Part shown: positions 1-8,204 of the stretch, piece after piece | Numbering within the stretch: the first letter of the stretch is position 1 | Layout of the letters: each line of letters begins with the position of its first letter | Source: Fimbriimonadaceae bacterium | GTDB lineage: Bacteria > Armatimonadota > Fimbriimonadia > Fimbriimonadales > Fimbriimonadaceae | Direction: 5' to 3' | Length of the DNA: 10,925 nt | Assembly (NCBI GenBank): GCA_022842565.1 | Contig: JALHPH010000024.1 | Span: 1 to 10,925 of the forward strand | Notes under the pieces: model-generated | What the model was told of the DNA's origin: nothing | Databases searched by the model: none | Seen by the model: the letters and a program-made list of their open reading frames with translations, nothing else | Made by a program: the position numbers and the translations under genes

Positions 1-1159
1 GGCGGAAGCGGTTGTAATTGCTCGCCATGGACGAGTTGTACGCGCCCGTGCAAAGAACCTGAAGCGTATCGCCCGCTTGGCTGTCCGCAGGGAGCATAGT
101 ATTCGGAAAGAGCAGGTCGCTTTCACAGTGGGCTCCGTAAATGCTGAAGGCCGTGTCGCATTCGTCCTCCCGGGTGGGCACGACGTCGAAATTCCGGTCG
201 TAGAGCGCAGGGGAGGGGTTGTCACTCATGCCTCCGTCCACCGCCAGCAGCTTGTAATCGCCGATGTCCTTTCGCGCCATCACGTGGTAGAGCGTGACCC
301 CGGCTTCGGCTACCACCGAGCGCCCGGGCTCGATGGCGAGCGTGGCCATCACGCCTTCTTGAAGCAGCCTCGCGGCGACGGGCCGGAAAAGTGCCTTCAG
401 AAACTGACCCACTCGCACGGGCGGGTCGCTCTGGAGCTGCCGAACGGCGATCCCGCCGCCAAGGTTCAGATATCGCACATCCAGGCTCTGGCGCTGCATC
501 ATCTCGATGGCGAACTCCACGAGGGCGCTCGCGCCGAGTTCCAATTGCTCGGCCTCTCTCAGTTGCGACCCCAGATGGATATGGAATCCAACAAGGTTGA
601 GGCCCGCTTCTTGGCAGCGCTGCACCGCTTTTTCGGCACGCCCGTCCAGCAGCGGAATTCCGAATTTGCTCTTGAGGTGGCCGGTCGAAATCTTCTGGTG
701 AGTGCTCGTGCCGACGCCCGGATTGATGCGCAGGGCGATGGGCACTGTGCGGGCGCCCTTCTGAATCAGCCACTCCAGCTCGTCGGTGCTATCCACCACG
801 ATCATCCCCACTCCTAGTTCTAGTGCCAGTTCCAGATCAACCGGGGATTTGGCGTTGCCATGCAGGTGGCACCGGCTGGGTGGGATCGCCGCTCGGCTGG
901 CGGCAAGCAGCTCGCCCGCACCCGCGCAGTCGATTCCGCAGCCCTCGTGCGCGGCGACCTGCAGCAGCGCGAGCGTACCGTTGGCCTTACTGGCATAGGT
1001 GAGGGAAGTGGCGGGCCAGAGCTCGTTCAACGCAGCTTGGTATGTACGAATGCGGTCGCGGAGCGTCGCTTCATCCAGCACATACAGAGGGGTTCCAAAA
1101 GTCCGCGCCAGAGAGATGGCGTCAGCAGCGGGCAAGCGGAAACGGGTCTCCGGGTGCAT
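1..1159 (-). CDS. lysA: Diaminopimelate decarboxylase (partial, C-terminal end outside window)
   Basis: This PLP enzyme decarboxylates meso-diaminopimelate to L-lysine, the last step of lysine synthesis, in the cytoplasm. Reading the minus strand from the ATG at 1159 gives 386 residues that run off the left edge. The family usually has about 420, so only the C-terminal tail is missing. Visible motifs are YASKAN with the PLP lysine near residue 58, HLGSQ near 195-199, the glycine-rich LGGG near 233-236, EPGR near 277-280, CESD near 345-348, and GAYNSSMASNYN near the edge; the last two groups form the shared active site of the fold III dimer. The start is supported by a G-rich stretch just upstream and by the match of the N-terminus (FGTPLYVLDE) to the family. 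The gene is divergent from the phage-like cassette that begins at 1246. Its reading frame is intact. The assignment is secure; related decarboxylases of other substrates are unlikely given the CESD/GAY pattern. Confidence 0.95.
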   Translation of the reverse strand, partial: MHPETRFRLPAADAISLARTFGTPLYVLDEATLRDRIRTYQAALNELWPATSLTYASKANGTLALLQVAAHEGCGIDCAGAGELLAASRAAIPPSRCHLHGNAKSPVDLELALELGVGMIVVDSTDELEWLIQKGARTVPIALRINPGVGTSTHQKISTGHLKSKFGIPLLDGRAEKAVQRCQEAGLNLVGFHIHLGSQLREAEQLELGASALVEFAIEMMQRQSLDVRYLNLGGGIAVRQLQSDPPVRVGQFLKALFRPVAARLLQEGVMATLAIEPGRSVVAEAGVTLYHVMARKDIGDYKLLAVDGGMSDNPSPALYDRNFDVVPTREDECDTAFSIYGAHCESDLLFPNTMLPADSQAGDTLQVLCTGAYNSSMASNYNRFR

Positions 1160-1245
1160 AATCCCCCACACTTTAGCAGAACACCCAAGAAGAAAGAATC
1201 AAAAACCAGTAGACAAAAAGATACATTTGTGACGAAGGCTCAGTG
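1160..1245. promoter_or_regulatory. A-rich divergent intergenic region between lysA and the capsid cassette
   Basis: These 86 bases separate two divergently read genes, so any promoters for lysA (leftward) and the capsid cassette (rightward) should lie here. The centre (about 1187-1225) is strongly A-rich on the plus strand, unlike the G+C-rich coding sequence around it. A weak -10-like TACATT lies at 1222-1227 on the plus strand, with no good -35 partner. On the minus strand TTGATT (1202-1197) resembles a -35, with only a poor -10 downstream. I see no convincing consensus promoter and no att-like repeat matching the far end of the cassette near 4590. Confidence 0.35.
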
Positions 1246-1262
1246 ATGAATGAGCCTTTGTT
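1231..1262 (+). promoter_or_regulatory. Hairpin sequestering the start site of the first capsid-cassette gene
   Basis: Positions 1235-1242 (AAGGCTCA) are perfectly complementary to 1251-1258 (TGAGCCTT). The pairing extends outward through 1231-1234 with 1259-1262 (G.U, C-G, A-U, G.U), giving a 12-pair stem. The eight-base loop, 1243-1250, contains both possible start codons (GTG 1243 and ATG 1246). The Shine-Dalgarno-like GAAGG (1234-1238) lies in the 5' arm. In mRNA this would hide the ribosome binding site of the protease/scaffold gene, as translational operators do; as DNA it is also a palindrome that a repressor could bind. The pairing is seen directly. The regulatory role is inferred. 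Confidence 0.6.
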
Positions 1263-2130
1263 CGTCTCTTCGATTCCGCTGGAGGTGCAACGCTGGGTGG
1301 CCACATCAGGCCCCGGCTATCGCGGGCAACGCCGCGCCCCGACCGCTGAACAGCGCGTCCGCATTCTGGAAGTCTACGCCGCGGCCAGCCTGCAGCCCCC
1401 GATGTTCTTTTTGGAGGAAGTCACCTGGGTGGAGCGCAAAGCGAAGCTCTTTGAAGCCGGCGAGTACCCAGACAAGGGAGCCACGGTGACCGAAGGCGAT
1501 CTTGATGCGATGGTTGCCCATTTCGATCTGCCCGTCGGCGTGCTGATCGAGCACTCCGCTTCGCCATTGGAGCTGGGCTTTGTCACCCAGATTTGGCGCG
1601 AGGGTACGGCGCTTTTCGGGACGGTGGCGCTGACCTTCGAAGCCGACGCCCTCATCCGGCGAAGCAAGGCGACCGGGCTTTCGGTCGGGCTTTCCGAGGA
1701 CCTGCAGCACCTTCAGGAGGTGAGCCTGGTGCGATCGCCCCGCGTGGCCGATGCGCGCCTGTTTTGTGCCGCCTCCGCTGGCCTGCTCGAGACGGAAGTC
1801 GCCCCCGCGCCGACCGCCCCCGCCGAACACTGCGTTCAGCGATGGATCCGCGAGGGCCGCATCCTCCCCGCACAGGGCGAACCCCTGATGAAGCTCTACC
1901 AACTCGCTGCTCAGCCGCAGTTCAGCGCCGGCGGCGACCTGGTTGCGCGTCTTGATGCATTCCTCCAGTCGCTTCCGGCTCATGCGCTCTTTCAGGAGCA
2001 GGGCATCGACCCGCAGGATTCTTCCTCGGCTCTGTTCTTGCCCGAAGAGCGCGCGTTCTATGAGCGCTATTTCCCCGATGTCAGCCTGGACCAAATTGCC
2101 AAGCGCAAGCCGGTGCTGCGAAGCCTTTAA
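1246..2130 (+). CDS. Phage prohead protease with C-terminal scaffold-like region (Mu-type)
   Basis: This predicted 294-residue protein is likely the capsid maturation protease, which cuts scaffold and head proteins during procapsid assembly. The ATG at 1246 is chosen because GAAGG at 1234-1238 lies seven bases upstream; a GTG at 1243 would add one residue. Residues about 78-174 have the layout of prohead serine proteases: a region with YPDKGATVTEGDLD, a histidine in VLIEHS (near 103), PLELGFV, a serine in LSVGLS (near 146), then EVSLVRSPRVADARLF. His and Ser are the probable catalytic pair. The C-terminal 100 residues include GRILPAQGE, resembling the tail of Mu protease/scaffold proteins, and a helical end. 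The gene heads a six-gene capsid module and is followed 17 bases later by the decoration gene. Family placement is by motif recognition, without a database search. The start lies in a hairpin loop. Confidence 0.75.
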   Translation: MNEPLFVSSIPLEVQRWVATSGPGYRGQRRAPTAEQRVRILEVYAAASLQPPMFFLEEVTWVERKAKLFEAGEYPDKGATVTEGDLDAMVAHFDLPVGVLIEHSASPLELGFVTQIWREGTALFGTVALTFEADALIRRSKATGLSVGLSEDLQHLQEVSLVRSPRVADARLFCAASAGLLETEVAPAPTAPAEHCVQRWIREGRILPAQGEPLMKLYQLAAQPQFSAGGDLVARLDAFLQSLPAHALFQEQGIDPQDSSSALFLPEERAFYERYFPDVSLDQIAKRKPVLRSL

Positions 2131-2147
2131 CCCCCAAACATCCCATC

Positions 2148-2588
2148 ATGCCAGCACTCACTCGATCTTACGAAACATTCGAACGACCCGGATTGGTCGT
2201 TTCGTACCGAATCTCCAACACCAGAATCTTCAAGGGCGCCCTTGTCGGCGTCAATGCCAGCGGCTTCTTGGTGCCCATGGCGCACGGCACCGCCGGTCTG
2301 CGCTTTGTGGGCGTGGCCAATGAGAGCGTCGATAACTCGGCCGGAACGGCGGGCTCGCGCTCGGTCAATATCACCAAATCGGGGTCGTTCCTCATGATCC
2401 CCATTTCTGGGTTGACTCTGACCCAGGCCGATATTGGCAAAGTCGCTTATGCGAACACCGACTGGGAGATTCAGCTCGCTTCGGCCGGACTCACCAACCA
2501 ATACATCGTCGGCACCATCGTGGCCCTCGAAACCAGCTCAACCGGACAATCCGCGGCCCGCGTGCGCATCGACAACTACTCCGTCTAA
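2148..2588 (+). CDS. Probable capsid decoration protein (DUF2190/cement-like)
   Basis: The 146-residue product looks like the small beta-rich decoration or cement proteins encoded next to the major head protein in many tailed phages, which bind the outside of expanded capsids. The pattern is a short N-terminal arm, then repeated glycine-centred strands: GALVGVNASGFLVP (near 29-42), RFVGVANESVDNSAG (near 53-67), VNITKSGSFL, LTQADIGKVAY (near 92-102), and a C-terminal VGTIVALETS with RVRIDNYSV. GVA.E..DNS and LTQADIG are typical of the DUF2190 group. It lacks cysteines, signal peptide and membrane segments. It lies 17 bases after the protease and 8 bases before the major head gene, the order expected for Mu-like and related head operons. 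No Shine-Dalgarno sequence is visible before its ATG, so expression may depend on coupling or an SD-independent start. Confidence 0.68.
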   Translation: MPALTRSYETFERPGLVVSYRISNTRIFKGALVGVNASGFLVPMAHGTAGLRFVGVANESVDNSAGTAGSRSVNITKSGSFLMIPISGLTLTQADIGKVAYANTDWEIQLASAGLTNQYIVGTIVALETSSTGQSAARVRIDNYSV

Positions 2589-2596
2589 ACGAAACT

Positions 2597-3520
2597 ATGG
2601 CACTCACACGATCTGATATCCCCGATCTTCTGCTTCCCGGTCTGCGTACCGAATTCGACCTTGCATACCGCAACCTCATTCAGGATGGAGTCGCCGAACA
2701 GCTCGCGACCATCATCAACACCACCATTCCGGTGCAGCGCTACGGTTGGCTGGCCGCCAACCCCGTCATGCGCGAGTTCATCGATGAGCGACGCCCGCAG
2801 GGCATTGGCCAAAACTCTTGGAGCATCGCCGATAAAACCTTCGAAGCGACCCTTGCTGTCGACCGCAAGGCGATGGAGGATGACCAGCTCGACCTGATCC
2901 GGCTGCGTGTGCGGGATATGGCCGAGCGAGTCGCTGTGCACCGCCACCAATTGGTGGTCGAGGCGCTTGTCGCAGGCGAAGCCAGCACCAGTTACGACGG
3001 AGCGGCGTTCTTCGGCACTCACAGCATGGGCGTCGGCGGCAGCGCCGAAAACACCGGCCTCGACGCGCTGTCGTCTTCGACGCTCGCCACCTCCATGTCG
3101 ACCATGATGGGCTTTACCGACGATCAGGGCATCCCGCTTGGGATCATTCCCGATACCCTTCTGGTCGGCCCGAGCAACTGGTGGACTGCGCTGGAACTGG
3201 TTGAGAGCGTCACGGCCGTTCACAAATCCGACGCGAACTCGACCAATCACAAGAATGTTTTCCGGGGCAAGCTGAAAGTGGTGCTCTCGCCATTTCTTCG
3301 CGGGGCGTCGGCTGCGAACTGGTTCCTGCTGGATACCACCCGTGCCATGCGCGCGATCATCCTGCAGCAGCGTTCGGACGTTCCGATAGAATTCACGGCA
3401 CTGGAGGGCGGTTCGAGCTCCGAAGCGGCTTTCATGCGCGACCAGTATTTGTACGGCGTCCGAGGACGCTACAACGTAGGTTACGGCCTGTGGCAAACCG
3501 CCTTCGGCCAGTTCGCCTAA
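2597..3520 (+). CDS. Major capsid protein, Mu gpT-like (Mu-like prophage major head subunit)
   Basis: This 307-residue protein should form the capsid shell with the HK97 fold. It matches the Mu gpT family pattern: an N-terminal helix (LRTEFDLAYRNL, near 16-27), RYGWLAANPVMREF (near 48-61) matching the YGWLG..P.L.EW region of gpT, NSWSIADKTFEATLAVDR (near 73-90) matching the SIANKTFEGTVGISR stretch, a helix with RVAVHRHQLVVEALVAG, and YDGAAFFGTHSMG (near 133-145) matching the YDGQ.FF...HP segment. The C-terminal half carries a TLLVGPSNWWTALEL segment and ends in RGRYNVGYGLWQTAFG. The length equals that of gpT (about 305). The start is the ATG at 2597, eight bases after the decoration gene, with no Shine-Dalgarno motif. 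The frame is intact. A strong terminator follows immediately at 3540. I am confident it is a head protein; encapsulins lack this family pattern. Confidence 0.88.
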   Translation: MALTRSDIPDLLLPGLRTEFDLAYRNLIQDGVAEQLATIINTTIPVQRYGWLAANPVMREFIDERRPQGIGQNSWSIADKTFEATLAVDRKAMEDDQLDLIRLRVRDMAERVAVHRHQLVVEALVAGEASTSYDGAAFFGTHSMGVGGSAENTGLDALSSSTLATSMSTMMGFTDDQGIPLGIIPDTLLVGPSNWWTALELVESVTAVHKSDANSTNHKNVFRGKLKVVLSPFLRGASAANWFLLDTTRAMRAIILQQRSDVPIEFTALEGGSSSEAAFMRDQYLYGVRGRYNVGYGLWQTAFGQFA

Positions 3521-3539
3521 AGAAACCACCCTCAACCTT

Positions 3540-3573
3540 GGCCCGCGTAGCGCAAGCTGCCGGGCCGCTTTTT
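3540..3573 (+). terminator. Intrinsic terminator after the major capsid gene
   Basis: GGCCCG (3540-3545) pairs with CGGGCC (3561-3566). Inside, after a bulged C at 3546, five more pairs (3547-3551 with 3556-3560, one a G.U) close a GCAA tetraloop at 3552-3555. The run TTTTT follows at 3569-3573. This is a textbook Rho-independent structure, 19 bases after the major head stop codon. It is oriented for rightward transcription, and there is no A-run on its left to make it work in reverse. It would lower or stop transcription of the three downstream cassette genes, leaving the shell genes at higher expression. Confidence 0.85.
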
Positions 3574-3587
3574 CATTCAAGAACCCT

Positions 3588-3851
3588 ATGGAATCCCATA
3601 TTGTCATCGAAATCGTGGCGCTCCTTGTGGGCCTGGTGGGCACCTCCTTTGCGGTGGTGCGGCTGGGCATGCACATGAGCGAGCGCATCATCAACAAAAC
3701 TCTGAGCCTCTTCGAGGTCTCGTTCCGAAGTCAAGAAGAAGCGCTTCAGCGCATGGAAGAAGCCTTGGACGCGCTGACGATGGCCGTGCGTGATAGCAAC
3801 GCGATCATGGCCCGTGGCTCCGAGCTCCGCGTTCAGCAAGGTGGCCGCTAA
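3588..3851 (+). CDS. Small membrane-anchored coiled-coil protein of the capsid cassette, function unknown
   Basis: I do not recognise this 87-residue protein. Residues about 6-27 (VIEIVALLVGLVGTSFAVVRLG) form one clear hydrophobic helix with a very short N-terminus. Residues about 31-70 are a charged amphipathic helix with heptad-like spacing (RSQEEALQRMEEALDALTMAV), a likely coiled coil. The tail is basic (R..ELRVQQGGR). It stands where Mu has gp35, between the major head protein and the connector genes, but I see no similarity to gp35. It could be a holin- or spanin-like protein, a membrane tether, or a small accessory protein of unknown role; a one-helix holin is possible but unproven. Its ATG is 14 bases after the terminator T-run and its stop is 2 bases before the next GTG start, so it is co-translated with the next gene. 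An AAGAA at 3579-3583 is a weak ribosome site. Confidence 0.65.
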   Translation: MESHIVIEIVALLVGLVGTSFAVVRLGMHMSERIINKTLSLFEVSFRSQEEALQRMEEALDALTMAVRDSNAIMARGSELRVQQGGR

Positions 3852-3853
3852 AG

Positions 3854-4276
3854 GTGTTCGGACTCCAGCGTAGCACCGTCCTTTGGTGGGCGGGCCTCTC
3901 GCCAACGCTTTCCGATACGTTTGTGGACCAGGTCGTGAGTGATGTGGACACCATCATGCAGCACGTCCTGCGGCCCGAAGTCATCGCGGCGGTGCCATCC
4001 AACGTGCCTTTACAGGCCGTGTTGCGGGTGGCGGGCGAGGAAATTGCAGCGGGCATGATCTACGCGCGCTGGCTGCGGCTGCCAGAGCGATCGTGGGGTT
4101 GGCGAATTGGCGAACTGGAAGCTTCCCCCGGCGCACGGCCGCCTCTCGACCCAGGCGGGCTGATTGAGCGCGGGACCGCGCGCCTGAAGCCTTATCTGGT
4201 GAGCGATCCCAAGTTTGGGCCCCTCGCGAGCGTTTTTGGCGTCACCGGAAAGCAAGGGGGCGAGGCGATCTCGTGA
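3854..4276 (+). CDS. Probable head-tail connector (adaptor-like) phage protein
   Basis: The 140-residue product starts at GTG 3854, with AAGGTGG at 3838-3844 as the ribosome site. It ends in a TGA that overlaps the next GTG. The middle is helical: TFVDQVVSDVDTIMQHVLRPEVIAAV (near 22-47), then VPLQAVLRVAGEEIAAGMIYARWLRLPE (near 51-78), followed by a proline/glycine-rich stretch and a C-terminal helix containing ERGTARLKPYL. A helical bundle with a conserved A..A..IA...IY.RW-type helix is typical of gp15/gp6-type adaptors and of Mu gp36 (DUF1320), which bind the portal and extend the neck. The gene sits after the major head gene and before a stopper-like gene, the usual place for such a protein. 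No portal gene is present in the window for it to bind. The specific family is inferred from position and helix pattern, not from a firm motif. Confidence 0.55.
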   Translation: MFGLQRSTVLWWAGLSPTLSDTFVDQVVSDVDTIMQHVLRPEVIAAVPSNVPLQAVLRVAGEEIAAGMIYARWLRLPERSWGWRIGELEASPGARPPLDPGGLIERGTARLKPYLVSDPKFGPLASVFGVTGKQGGEAIS

Positions 4277-4593
4277 CCTCGCTCGTCGAAGGAACCAGCG
4301 CCGTCATCGACCACCTTGGCGAGGACATGACTCTAAACGGAGTGGCGCTCAAGGGCATAGTCCGCGTGGTGGGGCCTAGCGAGGCGCGAAACGTAATGGC
4401 GCAAGCGACGGCGGACGCCTCCGCCCGGCCGATGTACCGCGTGTTCATCAAAGCGTCGGTGGCGATCCCGGCGTTCCCGACAGTGGTCTACAACGGCCAA
4501 AACTACGGCATCCTGTTTTCTAGGCTGCACGTGGTGGCGGGCGTTGCTATCTACCGTTCGCTGAACATCGCCCAGGAACCTGGGCCGGTCTAG
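4273..4593 (+). CDS. Probable head-completion/stopper-like phage protein
   Basis: This 106-residue protein starts at GTG 4273 inside the previous stop (GTGA overlap), with GAGG at 4262-4265 as ribosome site, so it is translationally coupled. It looks like a small beta-barrel: GEDMTLNGVALKGIVRVV (near 16-33), a loop, then YRVFIKASVAIPAFPTVVYNGQNYGILFSRLHVVAGVAIYRSL. A strand with NG..YGI followed by a hydrophobic strand and a terminal YR is common in stopper or head-completion proteins (SPP1 gp16, lambda FII type) that close the neck after packaging. It is the last gene of the cassette. No tail-terminator or tail gene follows, and rseP begins on the opposite strand. Its TAG stop shares the bases CTAG with the rseP stop. 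Assignment rests on order, size and predicted fold and is tentative. Confidence 0.5.
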   Translation: MTSLVEGTSAVIDHLGEDMTLNGVALKGIVRVVGPSEARNVMAQATADASARPMYRVFIKASVAIPAFPTVVYNGQNYGILFSRLHVVAGVAIYRSLNIAQEPGPV

Positions 4594-6155
4594 CGCCCGA
4601 CGTTTCGACCGATATCTTGGCTCAGCGCGAACAGCATCAGGGTGAGCACCAGCATGAAACCCACGGTGCTAATGGTGTGCTGAACCTTCAGGCTGAGTCG
4701 CCTGCCTCCGCGGAGCATCTCGGCAAACGCCACCACCATCTGCCCGCCATCGAGCGGTGGCACCGGCAACAGGTTCATGATGCCCACCGCGATGCTCAGC
4801 TGGCCAGCCAGCAAAAGCACCGACTCGAATCCGCTGCGGCTCGCCTCTTGGGTGGCAGAGGCGATGGCAGCGGGTCCGCCTACATTTGCCTTGAAAGCGT
4901 CGGCGTTCATGAAAAGGCCGATGAAGCTGCGCACAGACCTTCCGGGAACCGCAAAGGCCTCCTGGAGCGCCTCAGCCGGACCCACCTTGTTCGTTTTCAC
5001 TTCCGGGCCGATGCCGAGTTTGCCTTGGCGCTTGAACTGTCCGGTCGGCTGAAGATCGGCCCCCAAGACCATTGTCGGTTCCTCATCGAGGATGGGCGTG
5101 ACAGTCTTCTCCAGGCGAATTCCGGCTCTTTCAATGACAATGGGGATCGCCTTGCCGCCCCGATCGCGCACGACTGCGACGGCGTCATAGAAGTTAGTGA
5201 TGGGCTGACCATCAATGCTCACAAACCGATCGCCATCTTTCAGACCAGCCTGCGCCGCGGCACCCTTGGGGGATGTCCCGCCGATCACCGGAGCCTCAGT
5301 AGGCCTATGAACGCCGAAAACCGCAAATGCGGAGAACAGGATCAAGACGCCGAGCACCACGCTGAAGAGCGGCCCGGCGAAGAGGGTCATGAGCCGCGCG
5401 AACGCAGGCTTTGTATAGAACCCCCCCAATATCTTCGCCTCGCCGCCATCTTCTTTCGGCACCATCCCCCTGATCTTGGCAAAGCCGCCCAGCGGGAGAG
5501 CCAGCAGGCTAAACTCAGTGCCCTCCTTGTTGGTGGTGTGCCAAATCGGTCGGTAGCGCACGTGCATCGGCTCGTTATTCACCTGAATCGCGCCATGGCC
5601 CATGGAGTCGTCATTGTCATCTATCTTCATGCCGAGTGGCGCGTAATAGATGATCAGCAGCCCAACCAGCGATGCGCCGATAAGCACCGCCAAAACATTG
5701 ATCAGCGTAACTCCTCGGAATCCGGTGCCGAAAGCCAGCAGAAACAAGCCGACCATATAGCAGGCCCCCAGTCGGCGGAGCGCATCGATCGGCTGCATGT
5801 GGTACAGATTCGCGAGACGGAGAGCGATCCAAACAGGCAGCACGCAGCCCAATAGGAGCATGGCGAATTCGAAAGCAGCGAGAAAGCGCTGATTCGCACT
5901 CACAAAAGCCACCACGGCCGTTGCGCTATAGGCCGCCGCAACCCAACTCGCCGGAACCATCTTCTTTGGCGCAGTCGCCTCCAGCGGGGTCTTACGGATT
6001 CCACCGACCATCACCGCAAAGGCGTCCACTTTCATTCCAAAAAGCTTCGCCACCCAGTAATGGCCCAGCTCATGAACGGCGATCAGCACCGTGAGAACCA
6101 AGAAGAAAGTGACGGCCCCACGAGCGAGGTCTAAAAGTGCGTTAAGGCTTTCCAT
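4590..6155 (-). CDS. rseP: RIP/site-2 zinc metalloprotease RseP with membrane-spanning insertion
   Basis: The 521-residue membrane protein is an intramembrane zinc protease, the family that cleaves anti-sigma factors or signal peptides within the membrane. The first helix (about 15-37) holds HELGH at 28-32, with the two zinc histidines and the catalytic glutamate. PLGGFAKIRG at 221-230, a helix near 253-280 after FAGPL, a PDZ domain at about 290-352 (GAAAQAGLKDGDRFVSIDG), and NLLPVPPLDGG at 461-471, carrying the third zinc ligand, follow in the expected order; a last helix spans about 495-511. Between GGIRKT and GTEFSLLALPLGGF, where typical members have roughly 15-25 residues, lie some 150 extra residues with about four hydrophobic helices (near 70-86, 91-114, 129-146, 149-171). 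The ATG at 6155 overlaps the end of dxr by 14 bases, implying coupling. It is the last gene of the leftward operon. Confidence 0.93.
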   Translation of the reverse strand: MESLNALLDLARGAVTFFLVLTVLIAVHELGHYWVAKLFGMKVDAFAVMVGGIRKTPLEATAPKKMVPASWVAAAYSATAVVAFVSANQRFLAAFEFAMLLLGCVLPVWIALRLANLYHMQPIDALRRLGACYMVGLFLLAFGTGFRGVTLINVLAVLIGASLVGLLIIYYAPLGMKIDDNDDSMGHGAIQVNNEPMHVRYRPIWHTTNKEGTEFSLLALPLGGFAKIRGMVPKEDGGEAKILGGFYTKPAFARLMTLFAGPLFSVVLGVLILFSAFAVFGVHRPTEAPVIGGTSPKGAAAQAGLKDGDRFVSIDGQPITNFYDAVAVVRDRGGKAIPIVIERAGIRLEKTVTPILDEEPTMVLGADLQPTGQFKRQGKLGIGPEVKTNKVGPAEALQEAFAVPGRSVRSFIGLFMNADAFKANVGGPAAIASATQEASRSGFESVLLLAGQLSIAVGIMNLLPVPPLDGGQMVVAFAEMLRGGRRLSLKVQHTISTVGFMLVLTLMLFALSQDIGRNVGR

Positions 6156-7283: not shown

Positions 7284-8204
7284 TTAAACTTTCCGCAGCC
7301 AAACCTGCATTTGCTGTTTCCCTTCCGAGCCCCACCTGTAGAATGGCGTGAGTTGCACCGCCACTGCCTCTTCGCCGCCATCATACGGCGGAAAGGGCGT
7401 CCACTCTTCAGGGATTGGCGCGTCCTTAACCCCATCGACCCAAAGTGTCCCGTCCTCATCGAACTCCAGTTCTTGCGCAGCTGCTGCCGCAAAGTGTTGG
7501 GGTGAAACGCCAAGCTCGCTCTCGCGCAAGCAATAGATGAGCGGCCCCGCCTGCAGCGCAAGCCGCCCCGAGAGCTCCTCGTAACACTCCGCGGCAACCA
7601 GCCACTCGGGCATGAACCGAAAGTTGACCTTCACCGAGTCGCCTGCAGTCCAAACGCGCCGCAACAGGATGAAATCGTCCTCGTATTCCATTTCGCCGTA
7701 ATGGTCGGGGATGTCGACCTCGGTATCGGATGCCCAACTCGGGAGTCGAATCGCAAGTGCGAACTCCACAGGCTCCTTGGGGTGCAGCGTCACCTCATAG
7801 TCGCCGCGATGCGGCAAGCCGGTCGTCGCTGAAACAGCCACCTTTTTGCCCGAAACCTCCACATGGGCATCGAGCGCCAACGGATGGATCATTCCTAAAT
7901 GATCCCCCTCCAAACCTATACAAAGCCCGCCCAGATTCTGCAACTCATCAATGGGCAAATTGTGCGCAAAAACTTGCACACAAGAGCCAGGCAAAGTGCA
8001 AAAAAACTGGAAAAAGCTGGCAGGGAGGGCGTTCCATAAGCGGCGGTCCTCGTCCTCAAAACTAGTCGGAAAGTGCGCTCCGATCACGCTGGGGACGCTG
8101 GCATAGAAAGAGGCCCCTGATTGCCCAAGGTAGCGATCTTGGAGAGGGCGCAATATCGCGTCGCGCAGCTCCACTTGGTCGGCGGGCACTCGGGTCCAGT
8201 TCAT
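7284..8204 (-). CDS. GH127-like protein reduced to the C-terminal part, probably non-catalytic
   Basis: The 306-residue protein resembles the C-terminal half of GH127 (DUF1680, beta-L-arabinofuranosidase-type) proteins. Residues about 145-228 follow the family pattern: VEFALAIRLPSWA, then DDFILLRRVWTAGDSVKVNFRF, then GRLALQAGPLIYCLRE. The end, VQLTPFYRWGSEGKQQMQVWL (about 283-302), matches the family terminus. The first 30 residues (TRVPADQVELRDAILRP) look like a GH127 N-terminus. The segment near 56-75 (LWNALPASFFQFFCTLPGS) seems to match the CCPPN region, but without the paired cysteines that include the nucleophile. Most of the (alpha/alpha) barrel is absent, since full members have over 600 residues. 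It therefore seems a shortened, probably inactive relative, perhaps binding sugar or serving another role. No signal peptide is visible. It lies 16 bases after nadC and 2 bases before dxr. Homology is by eye; confidence in the reading frame is higher. Confidence 0.6.
   Translation of the reverse strand: MNWTRVPADQVELRDAILRPLQDRYLGQSGASFYASVPSVIGAHFPTSFEDEDRRLWNALPASFFQFFCTLPGSCVQVFAHNLPIDELQNLGGLCIGLEGDHLGMIHPLALDAHVEVSGKKVAVSATTGLPHRGDYEVTLHPKEPVEFALAIRLPSWASDTEVDIPDHYGEMEYEDDFILLRRVWTAGDSVKVNFRFMPEWLVAAECYEELSGRLALQAGPLIYCLRESELGVSPQHFAAAAAQELEFDEDGTLWVDGVKDAPIPEEWTPFPPYDGGEEAVAVQLTPFYRWGSEGKQQMQVWLRKV

Follow-up and report, generated by a model that had tools for sequence, protein, structure and literature searches.

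A dispersed phage head system in Fimbriimonadales that may work like a gene transfer agent

Why should an intact set of phage head genes stand alone between two host genes? The question is raised by a 10,925-nt stretch of a Fimbriimonadaceae bacterium (contig JALHPH010000024.1, assembly GCA_022842565.1), hereafter the window, in which a six-gene phage head module lies at 1246-4593 with host genes on both sides. A sequence-only reading had described an ordered Mu-type head module between lysA and rseP, and Pfam and phrog matches, together with predicted folds for the last two genes, bear this description out. No integrase was found among the ten window proteins scanned, and no transposase, replication, tail, regulator or lysis gene lies beside the module within the window, whereas in an active Mu-like prophage genes for transposase, tail, regulator and lysis form a single unit. 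In our judgment a phage was probably domesticated here and is now inherited vertically, functioning in the manner of a gene transfer agent (GTA), and the module is its capsid island. Overall, the data fit a dispersed, co-regulated and vertically kept DNA-packaging head which would act like a GTA, and we do not file it as one. We infer that such a particle would form, package host DNA, be released and transfer its load.

Results

Packaging genes occupy separate islands

The sequence-only reading had proposed that the window might hold one part of a dispersed, GTA-like system. In support of this, the same genome carries a terminase (PF03237) and a Mu portal (PF06074) together on contig C168, where they neighbour the genes for ribosomal L3 and L4 and the contig end truncates the portal; Phage_Mu_F (PF04233) gave no match in this genome. 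We surveyed 101 genomes, our own and 100 relatives, mostly Fimbriimonadales (Armatimonadota). Capsid matches were found in 67 (a single match in 61 of these) and portal matches in 72, with both present in 62 genomes, capsid only in 5, portal only in 10 and neither in 24 (Fisher p 7.5e-11); these counts include every match at E <= 0.001 and thus take in one weak capsid match (G034), two phage-type portals (G013, G058) and one portal below cut-off (G090). Several of the genomes with only a capsid or only a portal are incomplete assemblies. The titles of 63 of the 77 named loci give Armatimonadetes/-ota, Fimbriimonad- or Chthonomonad- as the group, 12 read simply 'bacterium', and one each gives Abditibacteriota and Methanoregulaceae.

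Among 27 genomes searched, a PF03237 match and a Mu portal accompany the capsid in 20/20 capsid-bearing genomes; the PF03237 match of G009 is another phage's, its island terminase having been located on the gene map. Six of the seven capsid-less genomes have no Mu portal and the seventh (G013) has one of phage type. Terminase and portal stand side by side in 18 of 20 fetched loci, the other two being our own genome, where the portal is cut, and G065, where they lie apart. Capsid and portal form separate islands among host genes in 19 of the 20 capsid-bearing genomes and are adjacent in G019. The distance between them is 20 kb in G014 and G035 and about 1 Mb in G022, and in several genomes they lie on different contigs; in G065 the capsid, portal, terminase and adaptor are found at 1.41, 1.23, 2.27 and 2.56 Mb. 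A portal or terminase occurs within the same stretch as the capsid in 13 of the 77 named loci, mostly from other Armatimonadota lineages.

The capsid island of the window's family (f1) comprises protease, decoration, capsid, up to two small membrane genes, adaptor and stopper. That of a second family (f2) often holds protease, decoration and capsid only, and up to four islands are found per genome. The adaptor profile nevertheless matches all 14 f2 genomes, beside the capsid in 2 and not in 12, where the adaptor lies on a different contig or, in G065, 1.1 Mb away; it matches none of three capsid-less genomes. A stopper follows in all ten fetched f2 adaptor loci and a membrane gene precedes in nine, with host genes around. 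Nine f2 loci (L368:6936-7142 and eight others) also have a conserved protein of 56-68 residues ahead of the membrane-adaptor-stopper island. Terminase residues are close to invariant at positions that we presume to be the named motifs: Walker A in 19-21 of 21 rows, Walker B in 24/24, the coupling motif in 23-24 of 24 and the nuclease acids in 25/25. Internal stop codons suspected in f2 portals were rejected, as tblastn on 15 loci showed none. In G067, capsid, portal and adaptor are each in two pieces (L123:9100-10027, L362, L363), from sequencing indels or decay. Another way of splitting the head is seen in L145, where five other genes separate decoration and capsid.

Head genes are inherited with the host and conserved by selection

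Capsid distances track those of the housekeeping protein Dxr (Mantel r 0.80, p 1e-4, n = 28 genomes) at similar mean identity (0.59 vs 0.57). Correlation with Dxr was likewise high for portal (r 0.80), protease (0.77) and decoration (0.71), and lower for terminase (0.56), stopper (0.42) and the membrane gene (0.36). In a capsid tree of 68 rows, built by a quick method, single branches set apart f1, f2 and an HR16-like group (support 90, 97 and 100, respectively), and none of the three includes a viral row. Ratios of nonsynonymous to synonymous substitution (dN/dS) for module genes in ten close pairs were 0.014-0.39, with one value undefined and some dS saturated, a range like that of the flanking host genes; the pair L044/L046 (G022 vs G035), which joins two genera, was excluded. 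For the f2 adaptor, stopper, membrane and portal genes the range was 0.06-0.44. The window's own genes fall outside this test because the capsids of the nearest relatives are only 58-64% identical.

Neighbours of the module recur among 43 loci, with lysA in 7, rseP in 6, dxr in 6 and a trpS-like gene in 5, and rseP adjoins the stopper in L040, L146 and L199 as in the window. These shared flanks indicate that the window's insertion site is old. On gene maps of 20 stretches fetched for the capsid locus (two of them contigs under 4 kb) no full prophage was seen around it, and in the relatives tested the low dN/dS shows that the frames do not evolve neutrally. Sequence comparison thus shows vertical inheritance and purifying selection of the head genes in Fimbriimonadales relatives, in agreement with the long retention and domestication first proposed for the module.

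A shared promoter element, a palindrome and a candidate regulator

Words enriched upstream of the protease gene led to a promoter element. GTTGAC stands at -45 to -25 from the start codon of 20/36 protease and 12/20 terminase genes; the counts for the remaining module and portal genes and for host genes are 5/191 and 3/675, respectively. The enrichment gives Fisher values of 3.5e-26 (protease) and 2.3e-18 (terminase), to be discounted to the extent that the -45 to -25 interval was set after inspecting sequences and that some genomes are close relatives, not independent. The window's protease gene has GTAGAC in place of GTTGAC, while the terminase of the same genome has GTTGAC at -42. The capsid-less genome G020 also retains the element before its terminase (L384).

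Overlapping the protease promoter is a palindrome, GTAGAC-N4-GTCTAC, which scores at least 10/12 in 25 of 81 upstream stretches, compared to 9 of 1563 host genes. Five of these nine are divergent neighbours of a protease gene and another is a short open reading frame (ORF) immediately ahead of a protease; two form a gene pair at a locus encoding a sigma-region-4 protein, and the last is unrelated. Across 50 f1 loci (886,647 bases) 12 palindromes score at least 11, nine of them upstream of the protease, compared to 4 in a shuffle. The 12 also include, in G035, the promoter of a 145-residue protein that matches sigma-70 region 4 (PF08281 1.3e-4, below cut-off). Homologs identified by sequence in G009 and G048 have the palindrome (11/12 and 10/12) at -41 and about -30, counted from the starts called here; in the database the G048 protein is modelled with a start 37 codons further on. 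The palindrome thus precedes 3/3 sigma-region-4 genes examined, which makes this small protein a candidate regulator of the islands. Only two palindromes of at least 10/12 on the G048 contig precede genes, those of the sigma-region-4 protein and of a class II ribonucleotide reductase (PF08471 5e-38); the latter (G048:C7 near 124471, L394:4471; 10/12) lies 48 bases 5' of its gene, either as a possible further member of this regulon or by chance. A scan of the loci with short motifs for RecA- and LexA-type proteins found none.

Other Armatimonadota keep the genes in one cluster

In other Armatimonadota (e.g. L179, L181, L188, L191, L193 and L194) head, packaging and lysis genes form a single cluster. 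It opens with a small-terminase-like gene (phrog_7344, E 5e-6) and closes, directly after the stopper, with XhlA-like, holin-like and endolysin genes. These unified clusters share terminase, portal, protease, decoration, capsid, adaptor and stopper with the Fimbriimonadales islands. They differ in being undivided, in the additional small terminase, XhlA-like, holin-like and endolysin genes, in a variable gene slot and in the viral contigs intermixed with them. We infer that the single cluster is ancestral and was split later. Since their capsids intermix in the tree with those of viral contigs, including L207, which carries further phage genes, vertical descent is argued for Fimbriimonadia only.

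The variable slot, found in L179-L194 between capsid and adaptor (L193:11242-14199, L181:11267-12307, L191:7326-8015), looks like a fibre or surface-enzyme slot. Slot proteins of 346 and 985 residues have by eye a common N-terminal stretch and diverge afterwards, and the L191 slot encodes a GDSL-type hydrolase (PF13472 2e-16). In the IMG/VR contigs L205, L206, L219 and L229, catalogued as viral, portal, protease, decoration and capsid follow one another as in the Armatimonadota cluster, and L206 adds adaptor, stopper, holin-like and amidase-like genes. Such clusters may be catalogued as viruses, though these four are possibly real viruses.

Features of the window

Table 1. Genes and sites annotated in the window, with the basis of each assignment
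Feature	Position	Strand	Basis or remark
lysA (diaminopimelate decarboxylase), host flank	2..1171	-	PF02784 E 5e-48; truncated at window edge
Weak palindrome copy (GTAGAC-N4-GTCTAC)	1209..1224	+	9/12 positions; gap between divergent lysA and PROT
PROT, head maturation protease/scaffold	1246..2130	+	phrog_976 E 4e-9; alternative GTG start 1243
DECO, decoration/virion structural protein	2148..2588	+	phrog_1731 E 2e-21
CAPSID, major capsid protein, Mu gpT type	2597..3520	+	PF10124 E 5e-53
MEM, small membrane/coiled-coil protein	3588..3851	+	membrane nature judged by eye; position kept in relatives
ADAP, putative head-to-tail adaptor	3854..4276	+	predicted fold; moderate confidence
STOP, predicted neck stopper, lambda FII / SPP1 gp16 type	4273..4593	+	predicted fold
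rseP (M50 protease), host flank	4590..6155	-	PF02163 E 4e-46; 4-base overlap with STOP

In PROT, H103, S146 and E158, which we take to be the catalytic residues, are identical in 35/35 aligned rows. A capsid profile built from 17 relatives matches 8rkx (E 3e-58). MEM has no family match in Pfam or phrog profile scans. Adaptor and stopper profiles found nothing useful among Protein Data Bank (PDB) sequences, and because Foldseek E-values were weak (best 0.059 for the adaptor and 7e-3 for the stopper), both names rest on a second look; we count the predicted stopper fold among the established results. A consensus scan of 1000-4700 for a sigma-70 promoter found none, and the window's palindrome copy is not significant by itself, since scores of at least 9 also precede 54/1563 host genes. 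Elsewhere in the window, at 7284-8204 on the minus strand, an ORF encodes only the middle and C-terminal domains of a GH127 protein, the N-terminal catalytic part being seemingly absent.

Discussion

If the module belongs to a GTA-like system, other islands of the same chromosome would supply terminase and portal, and the shared promoter would drive the islands, possibly via the small sigma-region-4 protein, itself under the same palindrome. The cell would then build proheads, the protease would mature them, portal and terminase would load host DNA, and adaptor and stopper would close the filled heads. In most genomes the genes are probably too scattered to fit one particle, in which case it would be limited to moving or storing host DNA.

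Several observations weigh against this account. The adaptor shows no correlation with dxr (r 0.095, not significant), and between capsid and terminase distances r is 0.236 (p 0.097). The capsid is dispensable, given that one third of genomes lack it, and G020 (99% complete) keeps terminase and portal with no capsid or adaptor match. Terminase promoters come without the palindrome (0/31 at a score of at least 9), and the G048 contig holds 11 palindromes of at least 10/12 compared to 10 in a shuffle, so that position, not score, counts as palindrome evidence. The sigma-region-4 protein was seen in just three genomes and seven database records. Profiles for small terminase, holin and XhlA had no match in the Fimbriimonadales loci tested, the rest of the genomes lying outside that search, and one small-terminase-like helix-turn-helix protein (L368:10129-10425, profile E 2.4e-4, weak) is encoded about 2 kb from the G065 adaptor island. 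Finally, the available text of PMC11841831 portrays the known GTAs as particles with tails and a core cluster of head and tail genes, and a search for four tail families tied no tail to the islands, whose neighbours were not scanned against tail families. The sheath family PF04984 matched 3/27 genomes (G022, G046 and G029), just 2 of the 20 with a capsid. In a panel of 25 genomes, the tape measure PF10145 was found in 2 (G009, G101), the hub PF13550 in 3 (G009, G011, G014) and TMP_3 PF20155 in 4 (G009, below cut-off, G065, G101 and G103). In G009, G011, G014 and G065 the matches have a second, phage-type portal no more than about 25 kb away and so belong to other phages, which also indicates that the profiles are able to detect tails here; the sheath matches of G022 and G046 and the tape-measure matches of G101 and of G103 (on a 4.5-kb contig) were not placed. 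The tail-region ORFs of the nearest full phages have almost no Pfam match, and a divergent tail could thus escape detection.

The rarity of these tail families and their lack of connection to the islands bring up a different particle, a DNA-packaging head that has lost its tail and serves to store or protect host DNA or to free it when the cell lyses, recipients then taking it up by their own means. It agrees with the islands' only recurring neighbours being host families (named by eye) and with the direct passage from stopper to lysis-type genes in the unified clusters. Yet adaptor and stopper, the usual tail joiners, are retained under selection, divergent tails can escape profiles, the neighbours were not scanned for tail families, and among eight unified-cluster genomes two (G101, G103) show tape-measure matches that were not placed. 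We hold this explanation to be clearly the less likely one, while giving it real weight. Somewhat less likely again is an elaborate variant, an order-wide tailless GTA of two to four co-regulated islands, with DNA-filled necked heads and a stand-alone sigma-region-4 activator reading a common GGTTGAC -35 element, retained by the host from an early stage of the order onward.

Capsid and packaging genes of its own, with no tail, would also suit a satellite that makes its head and borrows a helper's tail for spread, and there is precedent in the cfPICI satellites, which make their own capsids according to the available text of PMC11389934. Those, however, are mobile islands, whereas here the genes are dispersed over up to four loci, mostly single copy and inherited in step with the host, the capsid tracking dxr, and the window proteins scanned include no integrase. 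For Fimbriimonadales we regard a satellite as improbable and largely refuted; the unified clusters, intermixed as they are with viral contigs in the tree, might still be of this kind. That the capsid island stands alone had also suggested a capsid-only compartment, which would be encapsulin-like. This part of the sequence-only reading found no support and seems very improbable, as such a shell does without portal or terminase and here both are co-retained, the terminase with near-invariant motifs, along with adaptor and stopper. We would give equally little credence to a functionless, slowly decaying prophage remnant: the capsid-less third of genomes and G020, reduced to terminase and portal, would agree with it, but frames are intact across the order, dN/dS is low in the pairs tested, presence and absence are coordinated and promoters are shared. 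The GTA-like system stays our preferred explanation.

With GTAs it shares phage-derived head and packaging genes on the host chromosome and, in Fimbriimonadales relatives, vertical inheritance with purifying selection. It departs from RcGTA and other GTAs in its Mu gpT capsid and Mu portal, in its two to four head islands, in its occurrence in Armatimonadota, in that no tail was found and in being seen as genes only. As to the capsid, 8rkx, the entry matched by its profile, is from the paper on the siphophage JBD30 (Casadabanvirus), to go by the accessible part of PMC11445458; JBD30 is a Mu-head siphophage with an infection cycle, whereas the window's head has no tail, transposase or replication gene beside it. 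The accessible text of PMC8597652 lists incomplete prophages in three Fimbriimonadales metagenome-assembled genomes (MAGs) from hot-spring mats and names GTAs only in general. One such region of 7.1 kb, with portal, head and capsid genes and no attachment site, resembles our islands in its description; these regions are treated there as incomplete prophages, and the accessible text describes no dispersed system. The parts available of PMC13055281 mention a GTA operon for one Rhodobacteraceae MAG only. Beyond 'incomplete prophages', no description of the Fimbriimonadales head system was found in the literature searched, which included the accessible text of PMC4072686 and left subscription journals and preprints largely outside.

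Our results suggest a DNA-carrying particle, possibly a gene transfer agent, in a little-studied bacterial order for which none is described in the literature searched. If so, a GTA-like particle would have arisen in Armatimonadota from a different head lineage, adding one more phylum to those with known GTAs, and a whole order would have retained it despite its scattered head genes. A working phage head could then persist without gene linkage, and the target of selection, head and packaging instead of the tail, would become open to study. The shared promoter and the candidate regulator offer a direct experimental handle and a route to the missing parts.

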